A stretch of 64,000 nucleotides of DNA. It comes from Streptomyces marianii (GTDB taxonomy: Bacteria; Actinomycetota; Actinomycetes; Streptomycetales; Streptomycetaceae). Below, one piece after another: positions 7,346-41,900 of the stretch; within the stretch, counting starts at the first letter, position 1; each line of letters begins with the position of its first letter. The stretch lies in assembly GCF_005795905.1 (NCBI RefSeq), contig NZ_VAWE01000001.1:1-64000 (forward strand). The letters run 5' to 3'. Position numbers and translations under genes: made by a program. The notes below the pieces were generated by a model, which made no database searches, was not told where the DNA came from, and saw only the letters and a list, made by a program, of their open reading frames with translations.

Positions 7346-7521
7346 GGTCCTCCCCCGGGTGACGGTGTGCACAGGCACCTGGTTCACAGGGTGGAAGGAG
7401 TGTGCGAGGCCGTGCCTGGGCGTTCGCCTGGGTTCACCTGAACGAGTGTCGGTGCTCTTGACCGCCTGCTGGCGGGCCGGTCACGGTGACCCGTGGTGAC
7501 GGCTTCGGCGGAAGGGCAGCG

Positions 7522-8606: not shown

Positions 8607-8614
8607 CCTTGCAG

Positions 8615-19118: not shown

Positions 19119-19761
19119 CAGCTCACCACCCCCGACCCGCCTGGAACGGACGGTCCCAGGCTTCCTGCCTGCATACACCTGCCGTCTCAGGCCCGCCAGG
19201 CAACACGCCCGAAGGCGCGAACCGCGAGCCTGTTCGTCACGCGGACCGTCCCCGCGGATCGCCGTGGTGCGGACACCGCTCGTCGGCCGGAGGCGCAGAC
19301 GGTCTGGTGCGTCCTGGCCCGGCAGCTGCCGGATACCCGTCGCCCCGGACGCGGGGTGCCGGGGCCGGTTGGCGGCGCCAGGGTCCTTCCCCCACCGGTG
19401 ATCGGATCCCGGCGGGCCACGGTGGGTCTCCTCGCTCCCTCCCCTTCCTGGGACTGATCGATGCAGCGGATGTTCAGCGGGCCGAACCGGGCCGCGTGGC
19501 GGGCGAGTTCAACAGCCAAGGCGGCGCGCAGGACGCCCTGGTCCGCACGGGAAGGGGGTGCCCGACTTCCTTGTCACCACCGTATTCACCCTTTCAGGCG
19601 TATCCGGCGGGTGGGGAAGTTCTCGCGGCGCGGCGCACAGCAGCATGGGGGTACCGGGCTGCGGTGTGGGCCGGCTGGGCGCACGGCCAGGGACCGAAGA
19701 TGCAGGAGTTGACGGGCGGACAGGTCTGCGGGGCCGTGCGGCGGCACGGCAGGGGGTGGGC
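19119..19761. other. 643-bp region upstream of tnsA, probable transposon end zone
   Basis: No convincing gene on either strand. One rightward frame ends at 19765 and overlaps the tnsA ATG as ATGA; its last 45 residues (from about LAARRTAAWGYRAAVWAG) could be a tiny coupled gene but have no family. By analogy with Tn7-like elements the left transposon end and TnsB-binding repeats might lie here; I could not see clear repeats. Confidence 0.3.
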
Positions 19762-20520: not shown

Positions 20521-20537
20521 ACGACCGGGAGGAGCGC

Positions 20538-22892
20538 ATGGCGGGAGCAGATGAGGGCCGGTCTGCGGGACCGCTGTCCATCGGGGCGCTGGTGCGCTGG
20601 CACCAGCGCGAGTGGGAGGTGGCGGAGTGGCAGGGGCCGCTGGTCACGCTGGTGCCGCAGGACGGCGCGGAGGCGCCCCGGGCGGTGTCCTTCCGGTGGC
20701 TGGTGGGCGCGGAGGATTTCGCTGTTCTCAGCGGGGGTGCGGCACCGGCCGCGGGCGGGGCGGCACTTGAGGGGCGAGGGCGGCTGGAGGGGCAGGAGGA
20801 GGAGGCCGAGCTGTGGCAGGCCCGCATGGTGGAGATCGATACCGGTCTGGCGCCGGGCCGAAGCGAGCATGCGCGGGGATTCGGGCCGGACACGACGCTG
20901 GCCCAGCGGTGCGCCGCGATGTCGGCGCGGCTGGCCGCCGACGGCATCCGCTGCTCCGCTCACACCCTCGCCGACAAGCGGCGCAAGTGGAAAGCGGCCG
21001 GGGAGAACCCGGTTGTGCTGCTGCCCGCAGGGCGGGAGAAACGGCCGGGTGGCTTCACCGATCCGCGGTGCCTGTTCGCCATGCAGGAGGTGGCGGCCCG
21101 GCGGGCCCACGCGTCGGATGTGACCATCGACGTGATCCGCGAGGAAGTCGAGGACCTGCTGCACTCGCGGTACGCCAAGGAACTCGGCTCGGCTGGCGTG
21201 GCGGCTCTGCTGCCCTCCCGTTCCACCTTCTACCTGCGGATGAAGGAGTCCGGCCTGGCCGATGCCCTGAGCAAGCCGACACGGTCCCGGGCCGCCCTGG
21301 CCTCCACCCCGCCGCTGCCCCATGGCGGGCGCGAGGTCGTGCTGCGGCCGGGACAGGTGACCCAGACCGACACCACGCCGCTGCGGATCCTGGCCCGCGG
21401 CGACGACGGCCGGCCCACCGCAACGGAGCTGACCTCGCTCATCGATGTGGCCAACCACACCGTGTGCGCGTTGATGATCACGCCCAGCCGCCCCCGGGAC
21501 GCCGAGAGCGGGCAGGCGGGCCAGGCGACCCGGGCGATCGACCTGACCCTGATGCTGGCCCAGGCATTCGCGCCCTGGCCGGTGATGCCCGGCTGGGACC
21601 CGCTCAGTGCGGCCGCCGCCTCCAGTCTGCCGTTCGGGGCGCTGCGGGCCGCGGACGAGCGGTTCACCGAGGCCACCGCCGCCCGCCCGGTCATCCGCCC
21701 CGAGCTGATCATCTACGACCAGGGCAGCCCCTATGTGAGCGAGCACTTCACCGAGGTCTGCGACCGGCTGCGCATCGCCCGCCGCCCGGCGCGCAAGAAG
21801 ACCCCGACCGACAAACCGCTCCCCGAACACTTCTTCGTCACCCTCGCGCACCGCTTCAGTCAGCACGTGACGCACGGCTGGCAGGGCCGCAGCCACAAGA
21901 AACGCGGCCGCGGCATCGACCGGATGCCGCTGTACACGATTGCCGAGCTCCAGCAGATGGCCCAGGAGTGGGTGGCGCTCGAGTACCAGCAGACCCCCGA
22001 CGCGGGGCTGCGTGACCCGTTCCGTCCCCACGTCGTGCTGTCGCCCAACGAGATGTATGCGGTCCAGGTGGCCCGCAGCGGCTACCGGGCGGTGCCGCTC
22101 TCCCCTGCCGAGAACCGCTCCTTCCTGCTGCGGCAGTGGGTCCGCCCCGGCAAGGGCGGCTTCATGATCGATTATCGGATCTATCAGCCCATCGCGCAGG
22201 ACGCCGGTCACTACCGCGAGATCCTTCTGCGCGGCGGCTCGAAACTGCCCGGCCGAGGCGACCAGTGGGAATGCCGCTTCAACCCGTACCACCCCGAGCG
22301 GGTGTGGCTGTACGACCACACCGCCGGCACCTGGGTGACCTGCGACTTCCGGCTGCGGCACCTGCTGCACGATCCGTGGACCGCAGACATGTGGCAGGAA
22401 CACGCAGAGCGGCACCTGGCGGCCGGCGGCAGCAAGCAGGACGAGGAGGCGATCGCCCTGTCCCTGGCGCAGCGCGACCGGCGTCGTCGCAGTCGCAGGC
22501 CGCCGCCCAAGCGCACCGGGGCCGAACCGCCCTTCCAGGGGCTGGAGTTGGAGACGGAGCAGCCGTCCCAGGACCCGTACGCGGGTCTGGAGGAGTTCGA
22601 CCTGTCGACCCTGCGGCCCTACCCGGCGCTGCCCATCTCCCCCATGGCACCCCCCTCAGCACCCGCCACGTCGTTGCTGCCCGCAGGCAGCAACGACGTG
22701 GGGCCGACTTCGGGCAGCGGGCTGGCTCCGCATCCGCTCGCAGCGCTCTTCCCCGACGACGGCGACGGCAGCGGGCCGCAGGCCCTCACGGCCGAAGCAC
22801 CGGCATCTGTAGACGAGGTCGTCGACGCAGAGCTCCTCGACGACCCCAATCCGGACGATGACGAGGCCGAGAACGACGTATGGGATGTGTAG
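20538..22892 (+). CDS. tnsB: TnsB-like DDE transposase
   Basis: 784 residues. The integrase core has D278 (VTQTDTTPLRIL), D394 (IIYDQGSPYVSEHF) and E430 (DKPLPEHFFVTL); 35 residues separate the second D and the E, the classic DD35E spacing. A helix-turn-helix-like segment lies at 118-150, and a Mu-type beta-barrel region follows the core. The last 150 residues are acidic and proline-rich (for example EVVDAELLDDPNPDDDEAEN), a likely flexible contact with TnsC. GGAGGAG precedes the ATG at 20538. Catalytic residues are all present, so the transposase looks intact. Confidence 0.9.
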   Translation: MAGADEGRSAGPLSIGALVRWHQREWEVAEWQGPLVTLVPQDGAEAPRAVSFRWLVGAEDFAVLSGGAAPAAGGAALEGRGRLEGQEEEAELWQARMVEIDTGLAPGRSEHARGFGPDTTLAQRCAAMSARLAADGIRCSAHTLADKRRKWKAAGENPVVLLPAGREKRPGGFTDPRCLFAMQEVAARRAHASDVTIDVIREEVEDLLHSRYAKELGSAGVAALLPSRSTFYLRMKESGLADALSKPTRSRAALASTPPLPHGGREVVLRPGQVTQTDTTPLRILARGDDGRPTATELTSLIDVANHTVCALMITPSRPRDAESGQAGQATRAIDLTLMLAQAFAPWPVMPGWDPLSAAAASSLPFGALRAADERFTEATAARPVIRPELIIYDQGSPYVSEHFTEVCDRLRIARRPARKKTPTDKPLPEHFFVTLAHRFSQHVTHGWQGRSHKKRGRGIDRMPLYTIAELQQMAQEWVALEYQQTPDAGLRDPFRPHVVLSPNEMYAVQVARSGYRAVPLSPAENRSFLLRQWVRPGKGGFMIDYRIYQPIAQDAGHYREILLRGGSKLPGRGDQWECRFNPYHPERVWLYDHTAGTWVTCDFRLRHLLHDPWTADMWQEHAERHLAAGGSKQDEEAIALSLAQRDRRRRSRRPPPKRTGAEPPFQGLELETEQPSQDPYAGLEEFDLSTLRPYPALPISPMAPPSAPATSLLPAGSNDVGPTSGSGLAPHPLAALFPDDGDGSGPQALTAEAPASVDEVVDAELLDDPNPDDDEAENDVWDV

Positions 22893-22988
22893 GCGACCTG
22901 GGGCAGGGGCCGTGAACGACGCAGCCGCATCCGGCCCGGGGCCGGTCCGGCGGTGTCGAGGCAGGAACCGTGATGAGGGAGAAGCGTG

Positions 22989-24140
22989 ATGAAGGCATCC
23001 GTCGAACTGCGTGACAAGCGTGAAGCCCGCCTGCGCCAGCAGCTGAGGGACACCCCGATGCGGCCTCTGCCGCTGTTCCAGCTCACCGGCTGGACCCACT
23101 TCGTCGACGAGGAGGTGAACCCGCCCGTCCTGGCGGCAGGCACCAGTCCCACCGAGGACAGGAAGACGGACGAACAGGCCATCGCCTACCACCGGCACCT
23201 GCGGATGGTGCCCACCGGCGCGATGACGCACATGCAGAAGACGGTCGTCGAGGCGGTCCACCGCAACAGCGGGAGCCGTGAGGGCCTGATGGACCATGTC
23301 ATCGACGGGCCCGCGGGCACTGGCAAGACCTGCCTGCTGCGGGCGATCGGACGCACCGCCCAGCAGGAGATCGAAGTCGCCACGAACGGCCGGCAGCCCA
23401 ACACGATCCCGGTGGTGCACATCACCACCCCCGCGGACCCGGAGCCGAGGGTGAACTGGATCTGGGAGATCGGCTCCTACCTGGGTCTCAACCCCGAGCC
23501 GAAGAGCCTCACGGAAGTCCTGGAGATGCGCAGGCACCAGGATGTGACCCTGTCGGTCAACTACGTCCTGGAGACGGCGCAGACCCGTCTGCTGCTCGTC
23601 GACGACATCGACCGGTCCTCGCCACAGCAACTGGCCAACGTGCTGCCCTACTTCGACTACCTGCGCGACAAGCTGGGCATCTCGCTCATCTTCTGCGGCA
23701 CCGGCGCCAGCCACCTCCTGCACCAGGCCCGCATCCTGGCCCAGGACCTGACCCGGGTCAGCGCGGAGAACCGGGTACGGCTCGAACAGGCGGGCCGCCC
23801 GGCGGATCCCGTCTCGCCCTCCCCCACCGCGCTGCTGCCCGTGACCTGGCTGCACCCCCTGCCCCTGGGCCCCAAGGCCGAGGAACAGGAGATGTTCCGG
23901 CGCGTACTGGCTAGCTTCGAGGCTGACTTGAGCCTGTACCGGCTCGAGGAAAACGCCCTCAGCAAGCACGCCGCCCAACTGCACCAGCTCACCGGCGGCT
24001 ACTTCAAAGCCCTCACCTACGTCATCTCCACCGCCGCCGTCATCGCGATCCACAGCGGCAGCGAGAACATCACCGAGAAAGAGCTCAAAGCAGCGACAGC
24101 CCAGCTCGGCCCCTGGCAACCAGCCGCAGGCGAGCGGTGA
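22989..24140 (+). CDS. tnsC: TnsC/TniB-like AAA ATPase
   Basis: 383 residues. Walker A GPAGTGKT at 107-114 and Walker B LLLVDDID at 201-208 in an AAA+ domain. The C-terminus has LTGGYFKALTYVISTAAVIA. TnsC assembles on target DNA, activates the transposase and confers target immunity. GTG at 22986 directly precedes the ATG at 22989; GAGGGAGAAG upstream serves either. It ends the tnsABC cluster; no tniQ follows, and the nearest one is at 7522. Downstream, 24151-24240 repeats part of its 3' end. Confidence 0.88.
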   Translation: MKASVELRDKREARLRQQLRDTPMRPLPLFQLTGWTHFVDEEVNPPVLAAGTSPTEDRKTDEQAIAYHRHLRMVPTGAMTHMQKTVVEAVHRNSGSREGLMDHVIDGPAGTGKTCLLRAIGRTAQQEIEVATNGRQPNTIPVVHITTPADPEPRVNWIWEIGSYLGLNPEPKSLTEVLEMRRHQDVTLSVNYVLETAQTRLLLVDDIDRSSPQQLANVLPYFDYLRDKLGISLIFCGTGASHLLHQARILAQDLTRVSAENRVRLEQAGRPADPVSPSPTALLPVTWLHPLPLGPKAEEQEMFRRVLASFEADLSLYRLEENALSKHAAQLHQLTGGYFKALTYVISTAAVIAIHSGSENITEKELKAATAQLGPWQPAAGER

Positions 24141-24290: not shown

Positions 24291-25355
24291 CTACCCGGTG
24301 GATCCGGTTTCGCCGTCGCCCGCACGAGCGCCGTCTGCCGGCACGTTGGCGTAGTCGACCCCGGGAAAGAGCCTAATGCGGCTCTCATCGACGCGGACCC
24401 TGGCCGGCCGCGGAGCGTCGTCCGAGAGGCGGCACAGCACGTCCGCTTCACGGCGGCCGTCCCTGGTGGTGTGCCAGGATCGCAACTGGCCGAAGCGGCG
24501 TTTCCCGTCGGCGGTCTCTACGAACACGGGCGGGTCCGGTGCGCGTCCCGGTCCCTCGGTGACCTGGGCGAAGAAGCCTTCCTGGCGCAGCCGGGTGCAC
24601 AGGTCCACCAGAGAGGATGCCTGGGTTCTTCCCAGTTCCATGCCGATCTCGAAGTGCTCTTGAAGACCGAGGGAGGACAGGTTCGCGCTGCCGAAGTAGC
24701 CGGTGGCGCGGTCGGCGACCACGAACTTGGCGTGCATGATGCCGGGGTTGGCCCCGGTCCACCAGTACAAGGACGTTCTTCCGTAGTCGGCGCAGTCTTT
24801 GACGAGGTCGGTCAGGGGTTGGGCCCGGCTGCTCGGGTCGTGGGCGTAGAAGTGGACGGCGACCTGGCGCTCGGCGACGGCGGGCAGCAGGACCTCGCGC
24901 AGTAGGTCGCAGCCATGGCGGTTCCAGAAGGGGCCGCCGATGTGGAGTTCGCTGTTGGCTCCGGCGATGACGTCCTGGACTAGCAGGTCCAGGCGTCGGA
25001 CGGGGGGCGCTACGAGGTGGGCGGCGGCTCGGGGGGTGGTGAACACCAGGGGGCGCTCGGATGGTGGTGCTGCGGGCGGTGGGTCAAGGCCGTCCAGGAC
25101 GTCCAGGAGCACCTGGAGTTGGGAGAGGCGGGCAGGGACGAGCCCTGCGTGCCGGCCTGAGCCCAGTAGGCCGCACTCGGCGGCGAGCTGGCGTACGGCG
25201 GTAGCGTGATCGTCTGCGACCCCGTGGACGCGGAGGGCGTCAAGGGTGTCGGCTCTGGCGATCTCCCGTGTCCATTCGGCGGCTGCCGCGTAGCTGCCCG
25301 CGAGGCGCTCCAGGAGCTGGGCGAGCGGGACCAGCGGTCGCAGTTCGTCGGTCAT
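24291..25355 (-). CDS. drmC: DISARM-type phospholipase D-like protein DrmC
   Basis: 354 residues with one HKD motif: H208, K210 and D215 in IMHAKFVVADRATGYFGSAN. A second, degenerate half lies earlier (ANSELHIGGPFW). DrmC is the PLD-fold component of DISARM, a defence system that restricts incoming unmethylated phage DNA; in studied systems it is the least essential core gene. Its ATG at 25355 overlaps the drmB TGA as ATGA. It is the last gene of the leftward operon drmE-drmA-drmB-drmC. Confidence 0.85.
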   Translation of the reverse strand: MTDELRPLVPLAQLLERLAGSYAAAAEWTREIARADTLDALRVHGVADDHATAVRQLAAECGLLGSGRHAGLVPARLSQLQVLLDVLDGLDPPPAAPPSERPLVFTTPRAAAHLVAPPVRRLDLLVQDVIAGANSELHIGGPFWNRHGCDLLREVLLPAVAERQVAVHFYAHDPSSRAQPLTDLVKDCADYGRTSLYWWTGANPGIMHAKFVVADRATGYFGSANLSSLGLQEHFEIGMELGRTQASSLVDLCTRLRQEGFFAQVTEGPGRAPDPPVFVETADGKRRFGQLRSWHTTRDGRREADVLCRLSDDAPRPARVRVDESRIRLFPGVDYANVPADGARAGDGETGSTG

Positions 25356-27166
25356 GTGTGGCTCGAGGCGGCGGTGTGGCGGAGGAACTCTGCGGCGAGG
25401 CCCCGGTCGAGGTCGTCGTTGAACAGCTGGCAGCCGAAGGTGAGGTAGACGCAGCGTTCGCAGCATCGTGGTGAGGACTGATGGCACAGCGGGTCGTTCT
25501 CGCAGCTGAGCACGGAGTCGGCGGTGCTCTCCAGCCAGCTGAGCACGCGGTTGCTGAGCAGGGTCCACAGTGATCCGAGGGTGAATTCACGGACGTTGTC
25601 GGCGTAGATGGCGACGGTGAGTGCCTTCGTGACGACCCATTCGGCGAGCGTGTTCTCGGCCAGTCCTACTTGGCCGTCGTCCAGGGAGCGAAGCAGGAGG
25701 TGGCCGAGGGTGTGGATGACCGTGTGCACGGTTGCTGCCGCGCGGGCGGCTTCCGGGTCGTCCTGGTCCGTGAACAGTTCCAGCAGCCGCCGGCGGGCCG
25801 CCGATTCGTCTTCGGCCACCCCGGCGGTGAGTCCTTTGGCGTCCAGGAAAGACAGGACGGAACGTGCGGAGAAGGTGACCAGGAGGGCTTCGGTGTCTGA
25901 TGCTGCGACGTAGACCGGGTACTTTCCGTCGTGGTGGTACTTGTTGTGGAAGCCGGTCAGGACGCCCCGTTCGGGCTCGTGCTCTTCTCTGGTGTAGCCG
26001 AAGGCGACTCGGGCTACGGGGAACTCCCAGGTGACGGCGATCTCCGCGATCCCCAGGGTGCGGGCCTGCTCGCGGGCGCGTTCCGTGGTCTGCTGGGCCA
26101 GCCGGTCCTGGAGCTCGGCGAAGCGTGCACACTGGTCGTCGAGGGTAATGCGCTGGATCTGGGCGGGGTCGAAGACGGCTGCGCGTTCCACGAAGGGGCG
26201 GTCTGCACCGAGCAGTTCCCACCGCGCGTTGTCGGCGTCCGTACTGGGCAGAGCAGCCAGGCCGCTCTCCTCCGGGCCCATCATTCTGCGGATCTGCTCG
26301 ATTGCCTCCTCCCCCATGTTGATCTGGCGCAGTTGTTGTTCTTTTTGCTGCCATTCCTGCGGGGACAGGCGTGGCACCGTGACGGTCTGGGCGGCGTCGC
26401 CGAGGCCCTGGGCCGTGGAGTCGATCAGGTTGAGGTAGTGGGCGGCCGCGATCCGGCCGCGCTGGGGGTGGCGTTGGTACTGCCGGAACTCGGAGTTGTC
26501 GATGTTGACGAGTTGGAGGGCGTGGACCTGGTAGGCGCGGGTGTCGTTGAACGTCCTTGCCCGCATCATGGCTCGGCCGGCGGCGTCCTTCCATTCGCAG
26601 CCGCAGGGGGACTGCGAGGTGCCCTGGAGCTTCGCGCCGCCGCAGCCTGGGCCGACGCAGCGCCAGAGGGCGGTGACGAAGCTTCCCGTGTTCTCAAACA
26701 CGATGTGGTCGTAGCCGTGCGCGGGAACACGGCACTTGGGCACGTACATGGGGCGGATGCGTCCGCAGTTGTGCGCGTTGAAGTACGGGAGTTGCCGCAG
26801 CGGTGCGCTGCAGGTGCGGCACCGGGGGTCGGCCGCGAGTTGCTGGGCCTTCGCGTAGGTGCGCACGCGGCGGCAGGAGCGGCGGACGCATTCGAGGACG
26901 AGCGGGAACACCTCGAAGCGGACGAGGTCGGGACTGACCAGGACGAAATTCTGCCGCAGTCGGCCCTGCGGCACGGGCAGGGCGGCTCTGGCGTCTTCGC
27001 TCCAGCGCTCCAGGTAGCGGGAGATTTCGTCATAGATGACGTCTTCGTTGAGTTTTTTGACCACGTCCCCGTCGACTGCCTGGACCCTGCCTCGCAGCCG
27101 CTGTTCGTGGCGGAAGACCGCACCGGGCAGGAAGGCGGTCATGGCCTGGCTACGGCTGCGGTTCAT
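25352..27166 (-). CDS. drmB: DISARM DUF1998-domain protein DrmB
   Basis: 604 residues. The C-terminal DUF1998 zone contains TVHTVIHTLGHLLL and the Cys cluster SPRCCERCVYLTFGCQLF ending in NDDLDRG. The N-terminal part has zinc-finger-like pairs (CRTCSAP, CGCEWKD). In DISARM, DrmB binds DrmA and together they sense and act on DNA. The ATG at 27166 has GGGCGAGG immediately upstream and was preferred over 27208. It overlaps the end of drmA by 17 bases and drmC by four. Confidence 0.85.
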   Translation of the reverse strand: MNRSRSQAMTAFLPGAVFRHEQRLRGRVQAVDGDVVKKLNEDVIYDEISRYLERWSEDARAALPVPQGRLRQNFVLVSPDLVRFEVFPLVLECVRRSCRRVRTYAKAQQLAADPRCRTCSAPLRQLPYFNAHNCGRIRPMYVPKCRVPAHGYDHIVFENTGSFVTALWRCVGPGCGGAKLQGTSQSPCGCEWKDAAGRAMMRARTFNDTRAYQVHALQLVNIDNSEFRQYQRHPQRGRIAAAHYLNLIDSTAQGLGDAAQTVTVPRLSPQEWQQKEQQLRQINMGEEAIEQIRRMMGPEESGLAALPSTDADNARWELLGADRPFVERAAVFDPAQIQRITLDDQCARFAELQDRLAQQTTERAREQARTLGIAEIAVTWEFPVARVAFGYTREEHEPERGVLTGFHNKYHHDGKYPVYVAASDTEALLVTFSARSVLSFLDAKGLTAGVAEDESAARRRLLELFTDQDDPEAARAAATVHTVIHTLGHLLLRSLDDGQVGLAENTLAEWVVTKALTVAIYADNVREFTLGSLWTLLSNRVLSWLESTADSVLSCENDPLCHQSSPRCCERCVYLTFGCQLFNDDLDRGLAAEFLRHTAASSHT

Positions 27167-30100
27167 CCTCGCCCCCCTTGCTGTCGGCAGTGTTGGTGGC
27201 GAGCGCATTGAAGGCGTCCTGGCTGCTGGTCAGTGACTGGAACGCTGTGCTCTTGTCGATGTCGCGGAAGCTGGTGAGCGGCTGTTGGAGGAACAGGTAG
27301 GCGGTGCGCTTTTCCTCTGCGCCCTTGTTGAGGTTGGGGCGTTCCTCCTGCCGCCAGGTGTCCATGATCCGCGCAACGAGGTCGTTCTCCAGGCCGCGCC
27401 CGTTGACGCCCTCCACACGCTCGCGGTAGCAGGCTGGGATGCGTCGTTCCAGCCAGGGGTCGAGAAGTGGTCGTTGGGCGCTCCACCAGCGCTTGAAGTC
27501 TTTGGAGTAGTCGGCTCCTTCCGGTGGTGGCTTCAGCGCGGGGTCACGGGCGGCGTCGTGAAGCAGCGCCAGCACGATGCCAGGCAGGGTGCGTCGCGCT
27601 GCGAAGTAGGCGTACTTGTTGACGGGCACGGGGGTGACCATGCGGTCGAGCAGGCGGTGGTAGCTCAGGAAGTTGGAGAACATGGAGCGTTCGCGGCGCG
27701 AGACGGGGTCGTAGACGGTGACGACGAGGCCTGCGTGGGTTCGCCCGGCCCGGGCGGTGACCTGGATGTAGTCGGCGGCGGTCGGCGGCATGCCGGCCAG
27801 GACCAGGAGGTTGAGGCGCTCGAGGTCCACCCCGTGGCTGAGCACGCTGGTGCCGACCAGGGCACGCAGCCGCTCTCCTCGCGGGGTGTCCAAGTGCTCG
27901 CGTTGGACCCGGGCGATGGCCGCGGCCAGGTCGGGGACCGGGACTTCGCCGGTGAGCACCGCATGCTCGACGCGGTCGAGTCCGGCGTGCTGCAGGTCGT
28001 CGGAGAGCTGGCCGAGCTCCTCGTCGAGCTGGGTGCCGTGCTGCTTGCTGTTCACATAGGCCAAGGAGACCTCGTAGGGGAAGAGGAGCCGTGGGAGGTC
28101 CGAGTCGGGCAGCCCGTGCAGGGCGAGGCGCTCGCGCAGGGCCTTGGGCTCCTCCTGGAGCCGGGCGATCTCGGTGAGGAGCTCGCCCTGCACGATCGCG
28201 GCGACGTCGGCTTTGCGGCGCTTGTGCGGGAGCACTCCGATGTGAACGCGCCGGAAGTCGGGCCGGGTCGTGGTGTAGAAGCTCTCGCCGAGTGTCCATC
28301 CCGGTGCGGGGAAGGCGCGGGGACGGCGGCCGTAGAGCTGGCGGAGCTGGTCCTGGTACTGCTCGATGGTGGCGGAGGCGCCCAGTACCTTGCTGGGCAG
28401 GCCGCTGCCTGCTCCTGACTGGAGTTCGGCGATCATGCCTTCGTAGTGCGCGTTGAACGCGCCGAGCTCCTCCTTGAGGAGGTGCATCTCGTCCTGCACC
28501 GTCAGTGCCGGTACCGGGTCCTTGATCGGGCGGGCCGCCGGGTAGCCGCCCTTCGGCGCGGTGCAGTGGTCCGGCCCGGCCGAGCAGACTCCGAAACGCG
28601 GGAAGGAGAAGTAGCCGTGCTCGGCGCAGCGGTGCTTCGGTCCGTGCTGGAACGCGGTGAACTCGGGGAACCAGCTGTGCCCGGTGAGCTTGTCGACGGT
28701 GGAGATGACGATCGCCGGCAGGGTGCGGTAGACCTCGACGTCGCTCACGTGCAGAGGCAGGATCCGCTGGCAGGCGGCGCACTCGTGATGCAGGCGGACC
28801 GCATCGATGTCCAGGCGCAGCCGTACGCTGTCGCGCTCGCAGTAGGGGCAGGTGATCACGAGCCGGTCGCGCAGGTGGTCTTCGGCGAAGGTCCCCGCCC
28901 GGGTGGCGGCGGCCTCGGTCTCCCAACCGCGCCACCAACCCCCATCCCAGTGGAGATCGTTGGGGCTGCCCGTGCCGCCGGCGAGGTAGCCGAGCGCGAA
29001 CGGGTCGTCGTGGGGGGATCCGATCCGGCGTTCGACGCGGAGCTCCTCGGCGGCGATCAGCATGCGCAGGGTGCGGTCGAGTTGCTGCACGCTGAGCATG
29101 CGCAGCGGGAAGCGCAGCCAGGCGGTGACCCCTGCGTGCTTGCCTCGCAGCCGGTCGTAGAACAGGGCGGTGAGGATCAGTCCCAGGTACGCCTCGGTCT
29201 TCCCCCCGCCCGCGGGGAACCACAGCACGTCGGTGTGGTCGAGTTCAGCGCGCAGGTCCGTCCGCTGCGGGTGCTCGCGCACGGCGAGGGCCGGCAGGTG
29301 GGAGACGATGTAGACCAGTTGGAAGAGCCGCCAACTGTCGTACGGGCGGCCGTCGTTGACGCGGGCGAAGACCTCGTTGGCGAGCCGGAAGGCATGCTTG
29401 AGGTCCGGGTCCAGGTCCAGGCACTCGCGGCCGAGGCCGAACCGCCTGGCCTCGTCGTCGAACTGGGCGCGGTCGGTTCGATGGCCTTGTGGTGCGGCAG
29501 CTGCTGGGCGGCACGGCAGGCGGCGGCGAACTCCCGGGCGTAGCGGGCCATCGCGACCTCGACGGAGTCCAGGATCGGGGTCGGATCGTCGGCCAGCTCA
29601 CGCCACCGCGGGTGTCGCACCCCGGCTTGGCGGGGTACGACGGTGCGTTGGACATGGATGGGCAGGGTCTCGGTCCGCAGACCGCTGCCGTGGGGAACGG
29701 CTGCGCAGCCGGTGCCGCGACCGATCACCTCCGCCAGCTCCTCCAGGCGGTAATCGCGGGGGGCGAGGTGGAAGCGCTGGGGCACGATGCTGATGCCGTC
29801 TCCGGGGAAGACCGCGAAGCGGCAGTCGTACACGGAGAGGTCCTGCCAGTCGCTCTGCGCCGTGTCGCTTTGGTTGTGCAGGGAGACGCGTATGAGGTGG
29901 TCGCCGCCGTCCAGGGCCTGGGCGTGCGCGGACAGCACCAGTTGAGGTGCGCAGGGGGCAGTGTCGCGGTCCAGCAGTGCCGCGACGTGGCGGTGGAATG
30001 CCTCCTCGTCGGCCATGGCCTCCGCGGGGAGCACATTGCGCCGGCGCCGCCCCTGGCGGCTCTGCGGCCCCGCGGTGAGCGGGCGACGGGCCTCGGGGCG

Positions 30101-30709
30101 GGCGAAGTGCGCGTCCACCGCTCGGCGGACCGCACGGTCCAGCACCTGCTGGGCCTCGCTGAGCGCGTGCGGATCGAGGTCGCCTTCCCCGAGCGGCACT
30201 TCGATGACCAGGTCGGGCACGTGGACGTCATGGCGGCGCCAGACGCCCAGCAGCTCTCCCGGCCGGGCCTGTGCGCCGGAGGGGTCTTCGTCGCCGCGCA
30301 GGTACTCCATGTGCTCGGCGTAGCTGGCGATGTCCTCCAGGTACAGGGCGAATCGGCAGTGGACGGCGAGTTGTGCGGTCCCGCGGCCGGGGGCGATGCC
30401 CACCCGGAAGTCGAGTGCCAGGACCGGGGGCGCCTGTGTGCCGCGCAGGGATTCGACGGGCCGGCGGCCCGGGTCAGCCGTCGCCTCGTCTGGTGCCGGG
30501 GGCTGTTGCGGCGGGACCGCGACGGCGGGCAGCACGCCGACGACGACGTGGTCGCGTGGTGTCCACGGGGGCTTGTGCGGCGCTCCGCTACGGTCGGCGA
30601 GCCTGTCGGCGAGGACCTGCGTCAGGTGGTCGATCAGCACCGTCTCCCGCTGGTTGTCCGCAGCGCTGTCGGGGTGCGGCGCCAGCGGGTTGTTGCGGGC
30701 ATCGTTCAC
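27150..30709 (-). CDS. drmA: DISARM helicase DrmA, split by a -1 frame change
   Basis: About 1186 residues across two frames. Part one (30709 to about 29470) starts at a GTG with GGAGG six bases upstream and ends native-looking at CRAAQQLPHHKAIEP. Part two continues in the -1 frame as RAQFDDEARRFGLGRECLDL and reaches the Walker A PAGGGKTEAYLGL, the form typical of DrmA, then VQDEMHLLKEE (DEAH-like), LGASATIEQY and VTARAGRTHAG. DrmA is the superfamily 2 translocase of DISARM. The change lies within 29460-29490; I see no canonical slippery heptamer there. As written the system would lack its motor; a base deletion in the assembly is equally likely. The GTG overlaps drmE as GTGA. Confidence 0.8.
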
Positions 30710-33204
30710 GGCGCCTCCTGTGGTGAGCTGCTTGCGCTGCGGGGGCCTGGCACGCGGCCCAGGGCGGTTGTGGACACGCTCTTCTGGCCGCCGACGCTGC
30801 GGACGACGACCAGGTCGAACTCCTCGAGGACCTCCGAGACGTCGATCCCGGAGCACAGTGTCTTCAGCTGGCGCAGCGCGGGGCCTTCCGTGCCCCGTGC
30901 GGCCTCGGTCATCGCCGCCGCCGCGGTGTGGCCCAGCGCCCGGTGTAAGCGGCGTAGTTCCTCCGCCATGCGGGCCAGGCGCTGCCAGGTGCCTCCTGCG
31001 GTCAGGCGGGTGTCCCGGGCCAGCAGGGCAACCCGGTGGATGTCTTGCGGGTCCTCCGGGGCAATGACGCTGCCGTCGGCCCATTTGCTCACCGCCTGCC
31101 ATGACGAGACCTCGCTCCCGAGGTTCTTCAGGGCGGTGAGCACGTTTGGCCACGACCCTCGTTGCTCGTGCACGGTGGTGATGGCCTGGCGGAAGAAGCC
31201 GATCATCGTGTCCATGGCGGTCACTTCGGCGCTGTCGTGCATCACCATGACGAGCCGGTCGTGGAGTCTGGACTGCCCGTCGCCGCGTGCGCGCAGGAGC
31301 CGGCTGCCGGGGGTGAGTGCGGTCACGGGCACCCTGGCGTAGCGCTGGCCGATGAGGACGTCGACCTGCTCGTCGCTGCGCAGCCAGAGCACTGTCCCTT
31401 CGGGTTCGGTGAGCACGGCCGTGGCCGGCACCGGGTCGTCCGCGGCCGCCACCGCTGTGGCGCTGCGGCCGGGGTCCGCCGAGGTGCCGATGGCCCTGGC
31501 CGGGGCGTCGTAGTCCTCGAAGAGCGCTGAGAGGTCGAGGGCGAGCCGACTGTCGTGCTGGGGCGGCTCTTCTGGTGCGGTGGACGGTCTGGAGAGGTCG
31601 ACGGGGCCGTACGCGACGGGCAGCGGGGGCGTCACCCGCTCTGGTACCTCGCCCAGCCTCAGCACCGCGGCGGTCTGGCGTATCTGCTCGTGCCAGCCGT
31701 GCAGCGCCCGGTCGGCTGAACGTTCCAGCCAGGTGTACTCGCTTTGCTCTACAACGACGAGGTGTTCATCGGCAGCACCGGAGAACAGCACGCCGGTGCG
31801 TGAGGCCGCGGGGACACCGAGGTGGAGCTCGAGCCTCGGCGAGGCGTCCCAGGGCAGGCGTTCTGTATAGGGCATCACATGCAGCGTTCCGGCTCCCCTG
31901 CTGGCGGCGGGCCCGGGCCGGGGAGCGAGCAGCAGGGAGTCGGCGTCACCGCCGAGCGTGTCGGCCAGCTCCTCGGCGACAGCGGCGGCGGCAGAGCGGG
32001 AGCGGGTGCGGACGAGAACGGGGACGTCTGCCCGGTCGGCCCGTGCCCAGGCGATCAGCGCAAGCAGCAGGTCCCGGCGGGGGTTGTCGTCGTAGAGCAG
32101 TTCATACAGGTCCAGCACGCTGCGCCGGAGGTCGGGCCATTGGGTTTCGCGGAACAGCCCCCACGGCCCGGCCCGGCCCTCCAATGTCCCGCGGGACACC
32201 GACCGGGCCAGCGCCCGTGCGCCGCTGCCGCGCCCCATCAGCACCTGCCAGGCGTCTTGCTTTCCGATCGAACCCCAGCTGCACCACAGCAGGTTGAGCA
32301 GGCGCACGGCGTCGGCGACCGGCTGCGGCCAGGGCTCCGACGTGTGGATACGCCGTGCTGCAACCACACCCGCCACGACGGTCCGGTACAGCTCGGCGAG
32401 CTGCTCGTGGCGGTATACCGCCACGCTTGGTGCGGCTGCCGGGCGATGGGCGAGGAGGGCGTTGCTGGTCAGGGGGCCGTATGCGGAGCGGTGTCCGAGG
32501 GTGTGCCGCACGTCGGTGCGCAGCGCGGGAGTCCACGGCCATTGGGTCCAGGCCCTGCTGCTGCCCGGCTGGGTGCCCAGGTCGGCGACGCCTACGACGC
32601 GAGCGGCGTCGTGCTCGCTCGCCCAGGCCAACGCGCGCTCCCAGGACTGGTCGTTGGCCATGCTGGTGCGGTCGATGACGACGGTGCCGACGCTGCTCCC
32701 CAGTGAGGGCCTGCCGAGCGCGGTGTTGAGGTAGAACAGTCCCGAGGGCGAATCGACAGCCCTGGTGATCCTTCCTTGGAGGTCAACAACCCGCCCGTCA
32801 CCGCGGATTCTCTGCATGCGCAGGGCTCGCGAGAGGTTCTGTCGGCCAATCGCGAGCTGTGCCAGCCGTACGGTGACGTTGGTGCGCAATCCGACGACAA
32901 CCACCGGTCCGTCAGGGACCGGACAGGGCGATCCGCCGGTCAGCTCTGCGCCGCGCCGTATGAGCTGGAGGTAGATCCCGATCAGCACGGCCAGGTCGTG
33001 CCGCCCGCGCGGGAGTCCCAGGTACACGCTGTGTTGGTCGCTCGATAAGGCGCGGGACAGCAGGGTCAGGGTGGCGCGGTCCAGTGGACCGAGATCGACG
33101 GTGCGGCCGCGGTCCGTCATGCGAAGGGCCTGCACGCGCTCGAAGAAGTCGGCCGGGTCTGCGTCGGGAGGGACGAGACAGTCCAGATATGTCACGCGTG
33201 CCAT
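30706..33204 (-). CDS. drmE: DrmE-like DISARM protein
   Basis: 832 residues with no catalytic motif I can name. It begins ARVTYLDCLVPPDADPADFF and contains YLGLPRGRHDLAVLIGIYLQ. A C-terminal region runs from VLIGQRYARVPVTALTPGSR through LHDRLVMVMHDS. Position decides the call: it is the first gene of the operon, directly before drmA (GTGA overlap), and has the size of DrmE, the class 2 DISARM subunit. The identification rests on context and remembered similarity, so it is less sure than drmABC. A GTG (33207) directly precedes the ATG (33204); AGGTGG lies upstream. Confidence 0.65.
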   Translation of the reverse strand: MARVTYLDCLVPPDADPADFFERVQALRMTDRGRTVDLGPLDRATLTLLSRALSSDQHSVYLGLPRGRHDLAVLIGIYLQLIRRGAELTGGSPCPVPDGPVVVVGLRTNVTVRLAQLAIGRQNLSRALRMQRIRGDGRVVDLQGRITRAVDSPSGLFYLNTALGRPSLGSSVGTVVIDRTSMANDQSWERALAWASEHDAARVVGVADLGTQPGSSRAWTQWPWTPALRTDVRHTLGHRSAYGPLTSNALLAHRPAAAPSVAVYRHEQLAELYRTVVAGVVAARRIHTSEPWPQPVADAVRLLNLLWCSWGSIGKQDAWQVLMGRGSGARALARSVSRGTLEGRAGPWGLFRETQWPDLRRSVLDLYELLYDDNPRRDLLLALIAWARADRADVPVLVRTRSRSAAAAVAEELADTLGGDADSLLLAPRPGPAASRGAGTLHVMPYTERLPWDASPRLELHLGVPAASRTGVLFSGAADEHLVVVEQSEYTWLERSADRALHGWHEQIRQTAAVLRLGEVPERVTPPLPVAYGPVDLSRPSTAPEEPPQHDSRLALDLSALFEDYDAPARAIGTSADPGRSATAVAAADDPVPATAVLTEPEGTVLWLRSDEQVDVLIGQRYARVPVTALTPGSRLLRARGDGQSRLHDRLVMVMHDSAEVTAMDTMIGFFRQAITTVHEQRGSWPNVLTALKNLGSEVSSWQAVSKWADGSVIAPEDPQDIHRVALLARDTRLTAGGTWQRLARMAEELRRLHRALGHTAAAAMTEAARGTEGPALRQLKTLCSGIDVSEVLEEFDLVVVRSVGGQKSVSTTALGRVPGPRSASSSPQEAP

Positions 33205-33207
33205 CAC

Positions 33208-33323
33208 CCACCTGGTATCCCCCCACTACCTGCCGTTACAGTAACGCACGTTGACAGGCCGTCACCTGCTCCTGCCCAATCCGAGGGCGGTGGATCCGGG
33301 TTCGGACCACCGGGGGCGTACAC
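33208..33323. promoter_or_regulatory. Divergent promoter region between drmE and the methyltransferase
   Basis: CGTTAC-A-GTAACG is a perfect 13-bp palindrome at 33234-33246, a likely operator. TTGACA at 33251-33256 is a consensus -35 for the rightward gene; CCCAAT 18 bases later is a weak -10. One palindrome could co-regulate methylase and restriction-like genes, which would let protection precede attack. GGGGG lies eight bases before the methylase ATG. Confidence 0.55.
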
Positions 33324-35411
33324 ATGAACGAGAAGCCAGGGGCGGGCCTTCCCCCGGTGTCACTTCTCGAGGCCGGGCCGGCGCCAGTGGAGTGGAGCCG
33401 GATCGCCGAGCACGAGTCGTGGCGCAAGGAGGTGCACCGGCCCGCGACCTACGTGCACAAGTGGTGGGCGAGGCGCCTGGGCAGCGTCGCACGCCACTTA
33501 CTGTTGGCTGCGGTGTCCGGGCCGGACGACTCTGTTGCGGACGCCGCGGCCAGGCTGCGGGGGCTCGTCGTCTATGATCCATTCGCCGGATCGGGCACCA
33601 CCCTCGTCGAGGCGGCCAAACTCGGGGCCGCCGTTGTCGGTCGCGACATCAACCCCGTCGCGACGCTCACCCAGCGGCAGGCGCTGCAACCATGGGATCT
33701 AGAGGTGCTCGCGGACCTCTTCGGGCAGGTCGTCAGGAAGTGCGCCCGTCCCGTCCAGGAATTGCACCGCACCGCCTCCAACGAACCGGTCCTGCACTAC
33801 TTCTGGGTCGCCCTCGCGTACTGCCCGGAGTGCGGCGAGGACGTGGAGCTCTTCACCACCCGAGTGTTCGCCCGCCATGCATACCCGCGCCGATTCCCGC
33901 GCGCCCAGGCTGTATGCCCGGGCTGCCGGGGCGTCTGCGTCACCGACCTGAGCAAGGACGAGAGGGGGCACTGTCCCGCCTGCGGCATGGCCTTCTCGTT
34001 CCAAGGGGCCGCCCGTGGACGATTCATGACGTGCCGTCACGGTCACCGCACCCCTGTCATTGCCGCGCTGAACGGCGCCGTCCCGGAGCGGCGCATGTAC
34101 GCGAAGCTGGTGCTGCGCGCCGACGGCCAGCGTGAGTACCGGGCGATCGACGACTTCGACCTCTGCCTGTACGACAAGGCAGCGAAGTCCCTCGCCGACA
34201 CATCCCCCGATGAGCTCGTACGCCCGCTCGGCGCGCTGGAGGAAGGCGTCAGCACCATCCAGGCGCTGCGCTGGGGGTACGACTCCTGGGAGCGGTTCTT
34301 CAACGAGCGCCAGCGCTACAGCCTGGGACTGATCGGCGCGGCGCTGCGCGATCTCCCCGGGGCGTCCGCGGAACGCGAGGCGCTCATCGCATCGTTCGGC
34401 AGAACCGTCGAACACCACAACCTGTTCTGCTCTTACAAGGGGGAGGGCACCGGCCCGGTCCGCTCGGTCTTCCACAACCACGTACTGCGACCGGAGCGGT
34501 GCAGCGTCGAAGGAGACCCCTGGGGCGCCCAGGGGGGATCGGCCGGGTTCTCCGGGGTGCTCACCCGGCTGCACAAAGCAGCCCAGTACAAGGGCACCCC
34601 GTTGGACTTCAGGGCCGAGGCCGGCCGGATCCTCGCCGTCGACCAGTCCTCGCTGCCCGTCGCCCGCCCCCTGAGCACGACGTGGCAGCAGTTCGTGCGG
34701 AATCCCGCAACGGCCTACACCACCACCGGCGACGCCTCACAGACGGATCTCCCCGACAACAGCGTGGACCTCATCGTCACCGACCCCCCCTACGTCGACA
34801 ACGTCCACTACTCGGAACTGGCCGACTTCTTCCACGCGTGGCTCAGCGCCATGCGCCCCTACCAGGGCTACCCGGACATGCCCAGCACCCGGGCCGTCCA
34901 GGAAGTACAGAACGCCGCCCCTGATGGATTCCAAGCCACCGCAGCCCGTGTCTGGCGCGAGTGCCGGCGCGTCCTCAAGCCCGGCGGCTGCCTCCTGTTC
35001 AGCTTCCACCAGTCGCAGACCACGGGCTGGTGCGCTCTTATGCGGTCGCTGTCCGACGCTGGCTTCACCGTTACCACGACCCGCGCCGTGATCGCCGAAG
35101 TGGCGACCAGTCTCTCCAAGACCGCAGCGGCGGAGCCCAACCGCATCGACGTCATCGTGCTGTGCCGGGACGCCGCGGGCACGTCTGCCGGGGCAGCCCC
35201 CGACCTCGACCAGGCCGCCGCGCAGGCGCTGTCGGAAATCCAGGGTCTTAGGGGAGCTGGGCTGCGGGTGGGTCCCGGCGATGTCCGCACCGCCGTACGC
35301 GCCGCGGTCTTGGCGACAGGAACACGCCAGGTGGCCGCCGACTGGGAGACCCTGCAAGCAGAGGCAGACCAGCGAGCCACGGCGGCGGTAGCGGAGTTCA
35401 GCACCACCTGA
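33324..35411 (+). CDS. Zinc-ribbon amino-methyltransferase (COG1743/DUF1156-like), DISARM partner
   Basis: 695 residues. Motif I DPFAGSGTTLVEA at 85-97 and catalytic motif DPPYVDN near 485 mark an N6-adenine or N4-cytosine DNA methyltransferase. Between them are Cys pairs CPECGED, CPGCRGVC and CPACGMAF, the zinc ribbons of COG1743. N-terminal VHRPATYVHKWWARRLGSVA is typical of that family. Placed divergent to drmE-A-B-C, it most likely marks self DNA for the DISARM-like system. Class 2 DISARM usually carries a C5-cytosine methylase (DrmMII) and class 1 a different adenine methylase (DrmMI), so this pairing is atypical. Confidence 0.83.
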   Translation: MNEKPGAGLPPVSLLEAGPAPVEWSRIAEHESWRKEVHRPATYVHKWWARRLGSVARHLLLAAVSGPDDSVADAAARLRGLVVYDPFAGSGTTLVEAAKLGAAVVGRDINPVATLTQRQALQPWDLEVLADLFGQVVRKCARPVQELHRTASNEPVLHYFWVALAYCPECGEDVELFTTRVFARHAYPRRFPRAQAVCPGCRGVCVTDLSKDERGHCPACGMAFSFQGAARGRFMTCRHGHRTPVIAALNGAVPERRMYAKLVLRADGQREYRAIDDFDLCLYDKAAKSLADTSPDELVRPLGALEEGVSTIQALRWGYDSWERFFNERQRYSLGLIGAALRDLPGASAEREALIASFGRTVEHHNLFCSYKGEGTGPVRSVFHNHVLRPERCSVEGDPWGAQGGSAGFSGVLTRLHKAAQYKGTPLDFRAEAGRILAVDQSSLPVARPLSTTWQQFVRNPATAYTTTGDASQTDLPDNSVDLIVTDPPYVDNVHYSELADFFHAWLSAMRPYQGYPDMPSTRAVQEVQNAAPDGFQATAARVWRECRRVLKPGGCLLFSFHQSQTTGWCALMRSLSDAGFTVTTTRAVIAEVATSLSKTAAAEPNRIDVIVLCRDAAGTSAGAAPDLDQAAAQALSEIQGLRGAGLRVGPGDVRTAVRAAVLATGTRQVAADWETLQAEADQRATAAVAEFSTT

Positions 35412-38386: not shown

Positions 38387-38953
38387 TCAGAGCAACGGCT
38401 TGCGGCACCCTCTGTGAGGCTCAACCGCCGCCGCGTGCAGCAGTGTTCGCCCAGGCGGCCGTCTCCGTGCGGTCCGGCCCTCGAGGCGCACCCGTCTGCA
38501 CCTGCCCTGGTGGCATTGCGCGGTGGTGGTGCGCACGATGAGGTCGGCGAGCGGCTGCTTCTCGAGGTAGCGCACGGCAGTATGCGGATCGGTGATGCCG
38601 TTGCGGACGAGTTCGTCACGGACGGCCGGAGCGACGGCCCCCAGTCCGCTCTGGGCGACCAGGTCACCGGCAGCGTGGAGGTTCAGCCAGTCGATGCCGT
38701 CGGGCAGTTCGAGGGCGCCGTCCTGGCCCAGCGAATGACGGATGGTGGGCCAGGCCAGGGGAGATCCGCAGGTGACGAGGGCGGTCAGGCCGTCGGGGCC
38801 GGGGCCGGTGTCCTCGCGGGTGAGCATGTCGAAGGCGATGACGCTGCCCAGGGAGTGCGCGATGACCAAGCGGGGTCCGGGGCGGTGCAGTTCGGTGCGG
38901 ACCTCGGCGCGGATGCGCTCACCGATGTCGTGGTGCAGGTAGTCTCGCTGTGA
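38387..38953 (-). pseudogene. Alpha/beta hydrolase remnant, N-terminus missing
   Basis: The frame holds the C-terminal two thirds of a hydrolase: LVIAHSLGSVIAFDML (GxSxG nucleophile elbow), LTALVTCGSPLAW, HAAGDLVAQSGLG and ITDPHTAVRYLEKQPLADLI. Upstream only about 27 residues remain (QRDYLHHDIGERIRAEV) before a TGA at 38954-38956, with no ATG or GTG in between; only a TTG at 38869 is available. The first 150 or so residues are lost. The end beyond about residue 110 also looks non-native. The break is at the same point where the rightward NACHT gene begins. Confidence 0.7.
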
Positions 38954-41900
38954 TCACCAGCGGTGATTTCGAGCAGGAGCCGCACCGGGGCGAGTTCACG
39001 CAGCTGCTGAAGCTGGCGCTGGACAAGGCCAGGGATGAGTCGGCCGGCTTCACCGCGCCCCATCTGTCGTTCGAGGAATGGGAGAAGCTCCTCAACACGG
39101 TCGGGGATGAGAACCCCGCCCTTCTGCGGGCGCTGTGGGTGTGGCCGGACTCGCGCCGCGACGAGCCGAGCCTGTGCCTGCCCAACCCGCGCTATCAGCC
39201 GCAGGAACAGGTCGTGGAGGCGTCCCGGCAGCCGGTGTCGCTGTCGGCATCCACCCTGGCGCAGTACTGGCTGGCCCGCGCCTCGGGCCGTACCGATGAC
39301 GATGATCCGGGCTGGTATTTCAGCGGGCGCCAGACGCTGATGCAGGCGCTGGTGGAGTTCGTTCATGCCGGGGCGGGGGTGCTAGTGGTGACCGGGGCGG
39401 CCGGCTCGGGCAAGTCGGCGTTGCTGGCCCGGCTGGTCACGCTGAGCGATCCGTTGTTCGTTACCCGGTTCGCGGACATGGTGGAGGCGGTTCCCGCACC
39501 GCTGCGGCCGCGGCAGCGTGCGGTGGACGCGGCCGTGCTGGCGCGGGGAAAGTCGTCGCTGGCATTGATCGAGGATCTGCTGGCCGCCCTCGGCACCGAG
39601 AGAGTCGGGGGCGAGCCACACGTGCAGGCACTGCTGGACCGGGTGGCCGCAGTCTGCGCGGAGGTGCGGGAGCCGATAACACTCGTGGTCGACGGTCTGG
39701 ATGAGGCGCAGGAACCGACCGCCTGCCTGTCCGACGTGATCGCCCCGCTGGCCCGGCTGCGGAGTGCGGACGGGGAACCGGCGGTGCGGTTGGTACTGGG
39801 AATGCGTAGTTCGGCCCAGGACGTCGAGGGCGGCAAGCTGCAGGATGCGGCGGCCGACCAGCTGCTGGGTTTCCTGTACACCGTGCTGCAGGCGGGGATG
39901 GGCGAGAGCAGCGTGCCGCTGGACCTGCTGCGCACGGACGGGGCCCAGACCGCCGCCGACATCACCGCCTATGTAGAGATGGTGCTGCAGGCGGCTGCGG
40001 ACAGCCCGTATGCCGGCCACGCCGCGGCGGCTGCCGAGGTGGCCTCGGTGATCGCGCAGGCCGTGAAGCCGTCGTTCCTCGATGCCAGGCTGGCCGCCGC
40101 CCAGCTGAGGTCCGCGATCGGCTGGCAGGACGTGCACGATCCCCTTTGGCGTGGCCGGCTGCTGGCCGGGACGACGGCGCTGCTGGCCAGCGATGTGCGG
40201 CAGGCAGCCAGGGACCAGGACATCAGCCTGCCGATGCTGCTGGCGGTGCTGCGGGCCACCGCCTTCGCCCAAGGCGCGGGGCTGCCGTGGGCGGAAGTGT
40301 GGCCGGCGGTGGCCGCCGCGGTCCTCGGCCCGGCTGCACCGCCCGCCGACGAGATCGATGCGGTGATCCGCACGGTCCGCCACAGCCGCCTGGTCGGCTA
40401 CCTCGCCGCCGGTGAGGAGGACGGCCGAGTCACCTACCGGCCCGTCCACCAGCGGGTGGCCGAGGTGCTGTTGACCGAGCCGGGCCTGCTGATCGGGGAG
40501 CCCCTTGAGGGCCTTCCTGCCGAATGGGCTGCTGAGATGGAAGGCCTGCGGCCCGTGCCGCAGGTCCACCGTGCCATCGCCGAGGCCTGCGCCCACCTGG
40601 CCGAGCAGGGCGGCCGCCTGGCACCGCATCCTTATGTGCGCCGCCACACGGTGGCCCATGCCGAGCTGGGCCACGCTCTGGACGATTCGATCATGCCGGT
40701 GGAACTGGCGGTCTGGGAGAGCTCAAGGTCGCTGCGCGGACGGCTGGGCCTGCCGCTGCCGGTGGGTGACCCCCAGCGTCGGGTGCTCACATCGGCCGGG
40801 CTGATCGAGCCGTACCTGGATGAGTCGGTGGATGCCCCGTCCCGCTTCAGCAGCCTCTCCTTCCAGCTGGCGACACAGGGGGAGGAAGAGGGCAAGGACT
40901 TGCTGCCGGCATCGCCGACTCCCGCCCGTTCCTTCGGCCCGCGGCTGCGCACCCAGTGGGGGCACTGGCAGGCGCGGACCAACGTGGTGGCGTCCCCCAT
41001 GGGCCGGGTGCACGCCCTGTGCTCGCTGGCGACGGTGGGCGGCCGCCAACTGCTCGCCGCCAGCACCCGTCACGGCATCGGTGTCTGGGACAGCACAACC
41101 GGCCAGCAGCTCACCCACATCGACACCGGTGTGGCTCATGGCCTGACGGTCGCGAAGGGGACCAGCGGGCGTCCTTTCCTGGTGGCGGCCGGGCCCCGCA
41201 GCGCGGCGGTGTTCGATCCGCTTTCGGGCCGCCGACTGGCGGGCCTGGAACAGCTCAGTGTGCGCACGGTGGTGGTGGCGCAGGATGGCGCCGACCGGTG
41301 GACGATGGTGTTGGCCAGCGGGCGGGACGAACTGGCCCTGTGGAAGCCGTCAGAGGACGTGGTCCAGCTGGTCCGTCTGCCTGACGATCTTCGCCTGCCG
41401 GAGCGGCTGACCTGGGTCCGTGACCGGCGGGGCCGGGGCTACCACCTGTGTAAACGGCACCGCGCTGGGTGGGTGCTGTTCAATCCCCTGACCGGCGACG
41501 TCCTGCCCCTGCACCTGCCGTTCTCCACTGCCCGGTCCATGGCCGCCGTGCAAGGGCCGGAAGGCGATCTACTGGCCGTGCTGCGCGGCGGCCCGGACGA
41601 GCCGGTCTGGCTGTTCAACCCCTTCCAGATCACCGCCCGCAAGAGCGAGCTCTTCCCCACCGATGCCCTCCAGGCGGGCGAGGTGGTCGGCCGGTTGCCC
41701 ACTCAGGGTCAGCGGCTCGTGGCGCTGGCTGCTCCCGGCGGCGCCAGTGTGGCCGGCATCGTGACGGACGACGCCATCGAGGTGTGGGATACATCCCGGC
41801 CCGAGCCGCAGCATATTGGGACGTACCCGGCGTCGCCGCGAGCGATGTTCGCCGGCATTCCCAGCCCGGACAAGGCATGGAAGGTTGCCATCACCGGTGA

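Follow-up and report, generated by a model that had tools for sequence, protein, structure and literature searches.

A DISARM-type locus of Streptomyces marianii in which a DrmE-like protein is paired with a zinc-ribbon amino-methyltransferase

DISARM (defence island system associated with restriction-modification) operons have been described in two classes. As outlined in PMC9252829, PADLOC defines type I by DrmA, DrmB, DrmC, DrmD and DrmMI, and type II by DrmA, DrmB, DrmC, DrmE and DrmMII. In the class 1 system of Serratia, DrmAB is reported to be autoinhibited and to prefer unmodified DNA with a 5′ overhang, and DrmC is described as dispensable (PMC9142583). Here we analyzed a window of 64,000 nucleotides from Streptomyces marianii (contig NZ_VAWE01000001.1, positions 1 to 64,000), which forms the start of an 8.4-Mb contig within a 9.0-Mb genome. 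Five of its genes, between 24291 and 35411, make up a set that, judged by sequence, fits neither PADLOC type. We consider it likely that these genes form a phage-defence operon of the DISARM type from a separate actinobacterial lineage, which stands on the DrmE-bearing (class 2) side and uses a zinc-ribbon amino-methyltransferase, instead of a C5 methylase, to place its self mark. The reading is based on which genes are present, how far the set is conserved, the DrmA tree, fold predictions and the motifs that DrmE has lost, and it is a defence activity that we infer for the operon.

Gene content of the locus

The genes of the locus and the gap between its divergent pair are as follows.
24291-25355, minus strand: drmC, candidate phospholipase-D-type nuclease (PADLOC DrmC, PLDc_2, HxKxxxxD)
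25352-27166, minus strand: drmB, DUF1998-type partner of DrmA (PADLOC DrmB; start from an annotated relative)
27150-30709, minus strand: drmA, SF2/YprA-family helicase, frame-broken near 29.5 kb (PADLOC, PDB 7s9v)
30706-33204, minus strand: drmE-like gene, 832 amino acids from the ATG (Pfam DrmE_C)
33205-33323, no strand: 119-bp gap separating the divergent drmE and methylase genes, a possible shared promoter region (sequence)
33324-35411, plus strand: zinc-ribbon amino-methyltransferase gene, divergent from drmE (Pfam N6_N4_Mtase, DPPY)

The drm genes run in the order drmE-drmA-drmB-drmC on the minus strand (about 24.3-33.2 kb), and the methylase gene diverges from drmE. A first-pass annotation of this DNA had placed a helicase, a DUF1998-type protein, a phospholipase-D-type protein and a large first gene, all overlapping, opposite a methyltransferase; the coordinates agree, and with starts taken from the annotated S. 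cellulosae relative the overlaps come to 4 (drmE/drmA), 17 (drmA/drmB) and 4 (drmB/drmC) bases. Its naming of the first gene as drmE is borne out by a Pfam DrmE_C match to the C-terminal domain of the product (E value 1.6e-13; 51.2 bits against a cut-off of 27). The helicase part of DrmA carries PAGGGKTEAYLGL and matched both PADLOC DrmA (4.2e-86) and the DrmA structure PDB 7s9v (9.4e-41), and the N-terminal part gave a PADLOC DrmA value of 0.014. DrmB (PADLOC DrmB, 1.5e-40) has a cysteine-rich tail of the DUF1998 type, with no match to Pfam MZB. DrmC matched PADLOC DrmC (6.7e-12) and Pfam PLDc_2 (1.2e-6), and its HxKxxxxD motif is visible in the sequence.

The methylase matched Pfam N6_N4_Mtase (1.2e-15). 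Motif I (DPFAGSGT) lies near its N-terminus and is followed by a long zinc-knuckle insert and by motif IV (DPPY) at residues 487-490. The zinc-knuckle residues C167, C170, C198, C201, C217, C237 and H241 were invariant in 33 aligned sequences, the query included. The C5 methylase family PF00145 had no match in the methylase or in the window as a whole, and its seven matches in the genome were all on contig C1 at 1.04 Mb or beyond. Taken with the DrmE_C match, this upholds the earlier proposal that DrmE is paired here with an amino-methylase that is not of the C5 type; the lack of a C5 methylase in the window also rules out an ordinary class 2 system.

DrmA phylogeny, DISARM class and DrmE

Class 2 loci share with the window a DrmE_C protein, DrmA, DrmB and DrmC in the order E-A-B-C, but they have the C5 methylase DrmMII, whereas the window has an amino-methyltransferase and a DrmE that the PADLOC models leave unmatched. 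Class 1 loci, as in Serratia, share the combination of an amino-type methylase with the DrmABC core. To place the locus between these, a DrmA helicase tree of 23 rows was rooted at its midpoint; S. rugosispiralis (broken drmA), five near-identical Streptomyces rows and a Burkholderia locus (L040) were left out of it. The 11 rows that combine DrmE with an amino-methylase formed one side of a 100/100 branch. A second 100/100 branch joined them to haloarchaeal, cyanobacterial and proteobacterial loci, and the joined group takes in both of the other rows that NCBI names as DrmE family (Halomicrobium and Haloplanus). The two DrmA rows with DrmD (class 1) fell outside the group that holds the DrmE rows. 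Polaromonas, Allocoleopsis and Deinococcus were long rows, and the C5 label given to Roseomonas, Allocoleopsis and DL31 stands for a cytosine methylase annotated no more than about 9 kb away.

Since the tree groups the lineage with DrmE-bearing loci and apart from DrmD, the simplest account is descent from the class 2 side, with a change in the methylase and not in the core. The first-pass annotation had instead proposed a mixed class 1/class 2 type. This hybrid is rejected because DrmA falls on the DrmE-bearing side, across a 100/100 branch from class 1, and because the SNF2 family PF00176 of DrmD has no match in the window (four matches lie elsewhere in the genome). The branch carries an amino-methylase of another family. 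Of the 64 PADLOC families matched by the window's methylase, 25 were listed, and DrmMI did not appear among these.

Mixing of methylases as such is not new, because the Serratia class 1 operon has been reported with both an N6-adenine and a C5 methylase (PMC9142583). A locus on the Polaromonas plasmid pPNAP03 also shares DrmA, DrmB, a phospholipase-D-type protein and an upstream amino-methylase, but the methylase is of another family (Eco57I type), further methylase and HsdS genes lie alongside, and its DrmA is distant. This DISARM-like core with its Eco57I-type methylase, another methylase and an HsdS gene occupies 2614-17844 of L039. A survey of YprA helicases describes many uncharacterized DISARM-like classes (PMC12458937), and the present lineage probably falls inside that set; the words DrmE and DUF1156 are absent from the survey's main text. 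The gene set was not named in the literature searched, which covers few subscription papers, and a search on DrmE alone gave nothing on DISARM among the matches listed. What was available of a methylome note on C. acnes DISARM (PMC7365801) was of no help for this locus. A 2022 paper on DrmAB still calls for studies of DrmD and DrmE (PMC9142583).

By prediction, DrmE resembles SF2 helicases but has lost the ATPase motifs: the model has a two-RecA core of the SF2 type at residues of about 14-574, with degenerate motifs, in addition to the DrmE_C domain. A search of PDB sequences with the DrmE profile gave no match. In profile comparisons, the DrmE alignment matched the Halomicrobium and Allocoleopsis proteins weakly and the Rubrobacter protein in the C-terminal domain only. 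DrmE of this type is rare, being found in 5/392 genomes of the genus and 3/396 of the phylum, with the window's own genome counted in both. Carriage by viruses was considered and rejected, as the DrmE alignment, run against viral contigs, yielded 44 pattern matches and 0 relatives. In G118, the drmE matches (L015, 11340-13714) fall in two frames, and the gene there may be split or broken.

The methylase, its tie to the drm genes and its origin

A methylase of this family stands beside drm genes in all 17 assessable loci, which range from Streptomyces to Rubrobacter. These are the window, G675, G709, G589, G573, S. panaciradicis, S. sp. Ag109_O5-1, S. rugosispiralis, S. poonensis, one S. cellulosae plasmid, Nocardioides speluncae, Mycobacteroides chelonae, Kineosporia babensis, a Serinicoccus, G118, G382 and Rubrobacter tropicus. 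The loci other than the window were gathered through DrmE or DrmA and have the needed flank, so that conservation of the methylase is an independent test; a 4.4-kb contig starting inside drmE (L024), a duplicate of L014 (L020) and three further S. cellulosae plasmids were left out. In a comparison set of 14 DrmA plasmid loci, drawn from 85 records with a DrmA match, single-sequence and profile searches found the methylase in one, again that of Rubrobacter. Because the methylase is present in 17/17 loci against 1/14 in the comparison set, we conclude from these sequence comparisons that it belongs to the DISARM system of this lineage, and its conservation next to the other four genes is as the first-pass annotation had supposed.

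In G709, G589 and G573, moreover, the DNA homologous to the window spans the five genes and hardly extends beyond them (at its widest, 24.21-35.65 kb), as if the five had moved as a block; the additional homology in G709 consists of a 123-bp tnsC remnant and weak matches of 69-75% to 2-7 kb of the window. Both this block, with little else nearby in common, and the methylase's absence from 13/14 comparison loci speak against an independent neighbour, that is, an orphan methylase or restriction-modification remnant beside a DISARM core that works without it or with another methylase. Such a neighbour would account for the variable position of the methylase gene, which most loci encode on the opposite strand and which lies divergently upstream, co-directionally upstream or downstream. 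It would also account for homologues in Streptomyces that lack drm genes, and for the methylase and partner pair of Serinicoccus described below. With a family member kept in every assessable locus, however, we regard an independent neighbour as unlikely.

Those homologues are four enzymes of the window's genus (G419, G428, G474 and G524) that form a sister clade to the methylase. Three of the four have a partner gene of about 270 codons, whose product shows a conserved PDx(10)ExK pattern in a motif read by eye; Pfam had no family for the two partner proteins scanned (L053 and L055). The resulting two-gene restriction-modification systems of G428, G474 and G524 have methylases of 47-49% identity and the nuclease-like partner, but drm genes are absent for some 8-10 kb around them. 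A similar methylase and partner pair adjoins the drm genes of Serinicoccus (L026, 19209-22153), where the PD-(D/E)XK-like protein and a zinc-ribbon methylase replace the usual divergent methylase. There, a DISARM methylase has most simply been swapped for a restriction-modification pair, and the case suggests exchange between the lineage and restriction-modification systems. In G419, a second-clade methylase lies a few kb from a distant tnsABC set (L054, 1427-5410 and 8916-11078), which suggests that such methylases are repeatedly carried near Tn7-like genes. At an E value of 1e-60 or below, the methylase was found in 8/246 genomes of the genus, the window's among them; three of the eight lie in drm loci, four belong to the second clade and one is distant.

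The methylase could also take part in the attack, modifying phage DNA, or a nucleic acid at positions other than those of N6-methyladenine and N4-methylcytosine, as in Pgl/BREX-like systems. Its best PADLOC model among the matches listed was PglX/PglXI (8.9e-23), over the DPPY half, and its nearest solved folds were the transfer RNA methylases Trm14 and Trm11. The latter two act on the N2 of guanine. The fold match, however, spans about 180 residues of a common Rossmann core, and so favours neither N6-methyladenine nor N4-methylcytosine, the two marks that the first-pass annotation took to be probable. Relatives of the methylase stand together with a PD-(D/E)XK-like protein, an arrangement familiar from classical restriction-modification. 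DISARM methylases have, in addition, been proposed to mark the host (PMC9142583). An attack role thus seems to us quite improbable, and a host-marking enzyme remains the preferred reading.

A methylase tree of 43 rows, using 28 of at least 120 homologues, included 15 DISARM-linked rows, the link being deduced for 5/15. Eleven of the 15 fell in one 23-row clade, alongside 12 rows of unknown context. Several results, from this tree and from the analyses above, weigh against a distinct class 2-derived lineage with a methylase of its own. The DISARM label changed 11 times on the tree against a shuffled mean of 12.5 and was not significantly clustered, because rows of unknown context are interleaved. 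The Serinicoccus methylase, with the same partner directly upstream, sits in the restriction-modification sister clade although it is beside drm genes. With no more than 26-29% identity and long branches, the methylases of G118, G382 and Rubrobacter stand far off, so a single methylase ancestor within the lineage is not established; these three could be separate recruitments. Annotated C5 methylases occur on the class 1 side as well, next to DrmD in Nocardioides JS614 and in the Deinococcus locus, and methylase type is therefore not cleanly split between the sides of the DrmA tree. drmC was not found in Nocardioides and Mycobacteroides (L022 and L023). DrmE had no PADLOC match, its alignment held few effective sequences (Neff 2.5), and its model was of middling confidence, with low listed Foldseek TM-scores (0.22-0.30). 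All four Drm proteins scored below their NCBIfam cut-offs (in bits, DrmAS 275 against 950, DrmB_fam 28 against 240, DrmC 52 against 133, and DrmE_fam 22 against 80) and are therefore a diverged set.

The S. marianii copy, its surroundings and wider meaning

In the window, drmA is not a single reading frame: its N-terminal part lies in an open reading frame at 31153-29177 and its helicase part in another at 29282-27150. The first-pass annotation was right about the identity and position of the gene but overlooked the break near 29.5 kb. The frame change amounts to one base, lies outside any run of identical bases and coincides with a switch in the codon-position statistics of guanine-plus-cytosine content. 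Both parts are in one open frame in eight of the nine other Streptomyces copies compared (L010, L012, L013, L014, L017, L018, L019, L021 and L035); the exception, S. rugosispiralis (L019, 12484-13724), is broken at a different site. Because drmA is frame-broken, the system is probably off in the window's strain, unless the break is an assembly error.

Whether the copy is a decaying remnant, in which the drmA break has killed the system and the rest is coasting, we judge to be evenly balanced; a remnant would be compatible with a functional DISARM-type lineage elsewhere. The single-base change against eight open relatives and the separate break in S. rugosispiralis favour decay. The other four genes are nevertheless open, with protein identities of 99.4-100% to S. 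panaciradicis, and an assembly error or programmed frameshifting would each explain the break otherwise. Over 18 kb, the window and the S. panaciradicis locus share 99.5% identity.

Three Tn7-like genes run towards drmC.
19558-20520, plus strand: tnsA-like gene (no Pfam match; the homologous S. cellulosae gene is annotated TnsA)
20244-22892, plus strand: tnsB-like gene, rve (Pfam)
22986-24140, plus strand: tnsC-like gene, TniB/AAA (Pfam)

The adjacency to a Tn7-like tnsABC set (19558-24140) reported in the first-pass annotation thus holds, and close relatives of the set adjoin drmC in 7/10 Streptomyces loci (the window, L010, L017, L018, L019, L021 and L035). The other three have the five genes without that set, G709 keeping a tnsC fragment. 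Neither G589 nor G573 has tns genes on the drmC side (the G573 flank is only 3.5 kb); a distant tns set does lie on the methylase side of G589. In the Mycobacteroides locus, a TniQ gene is next door. A repeat search near tnsA and at 35.4-38.2 kb gave no convincing transposon ends; it found 11 direct pairs against 6 and 4 in two shuffles, and 13 inverted pairs, which had no shuffle comparison. On these sequences, it is plausible that the drm block is cargo of a Tn7-like element. A TniQ-family gene of the window (7486-8559, plus strand) was considered as part of the block and rejected, as it is located at 7.5 kb and not tied to the block. It lies directly beside a tRNA-Met gene (8614-8688, minus strand), as if that gene had been used as a target by a Tn7-like element. 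Downstream, on the plus strand, are further defence-type genes, a STAND-type NTPase with WD40-like repeats (38950-42981) and an HsdM-type N6 methylase (43418-46450). Several copies of the locus are about 13-38 kb away from the end of a contig or replicon (the window; G709, L012/L059; G589, L013/L060; and the S. cellulosae linear plasmid, L035), hinting at subtelomeric or linear-plasmid exchange.

If the operon works as a DISARM system, the zinc-ribbon insert of the methylase would recognize a motif at which the enzyme marks the host's DNA. DrmA and DrmB would act as a helicase or translocase that loads on unmarked DNA with free ends, as suggested by Serratia DrmAB (PMC9142583). DrmE may be a non-catalytic DNA-binding or regulatory subunit in place of the class 1 SNF2 helicase DrmD, and DrmC an auxiliary nuclease that is sometimes missing. 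We tentatively extend this to a third DISARM class, which we hold to be possible but short of probable: an actinobacterial DrmE lineage whose amino-methylase was recruited from, and is still exchanged with, PD-(D/E)XK restriction-modification systems, and whose DrmE is a dead SF2 helicase at the place of DrmD.

For the family, DrmE goes without a C5 methylase in this whole lineage, contrary to the published pairing, and detection models, to judge from the PADLOC and NCBIfam results, would probably miss or misfile such loci. The findings suggest that the methylase serves DISARM as a specificity part that can be exchanged, and they give DrmE a testable identity as a dead helicase. Should the third-class reading be true, DISARM of either class would combine DrmAB with another helicase-like partner, whether active or dead.

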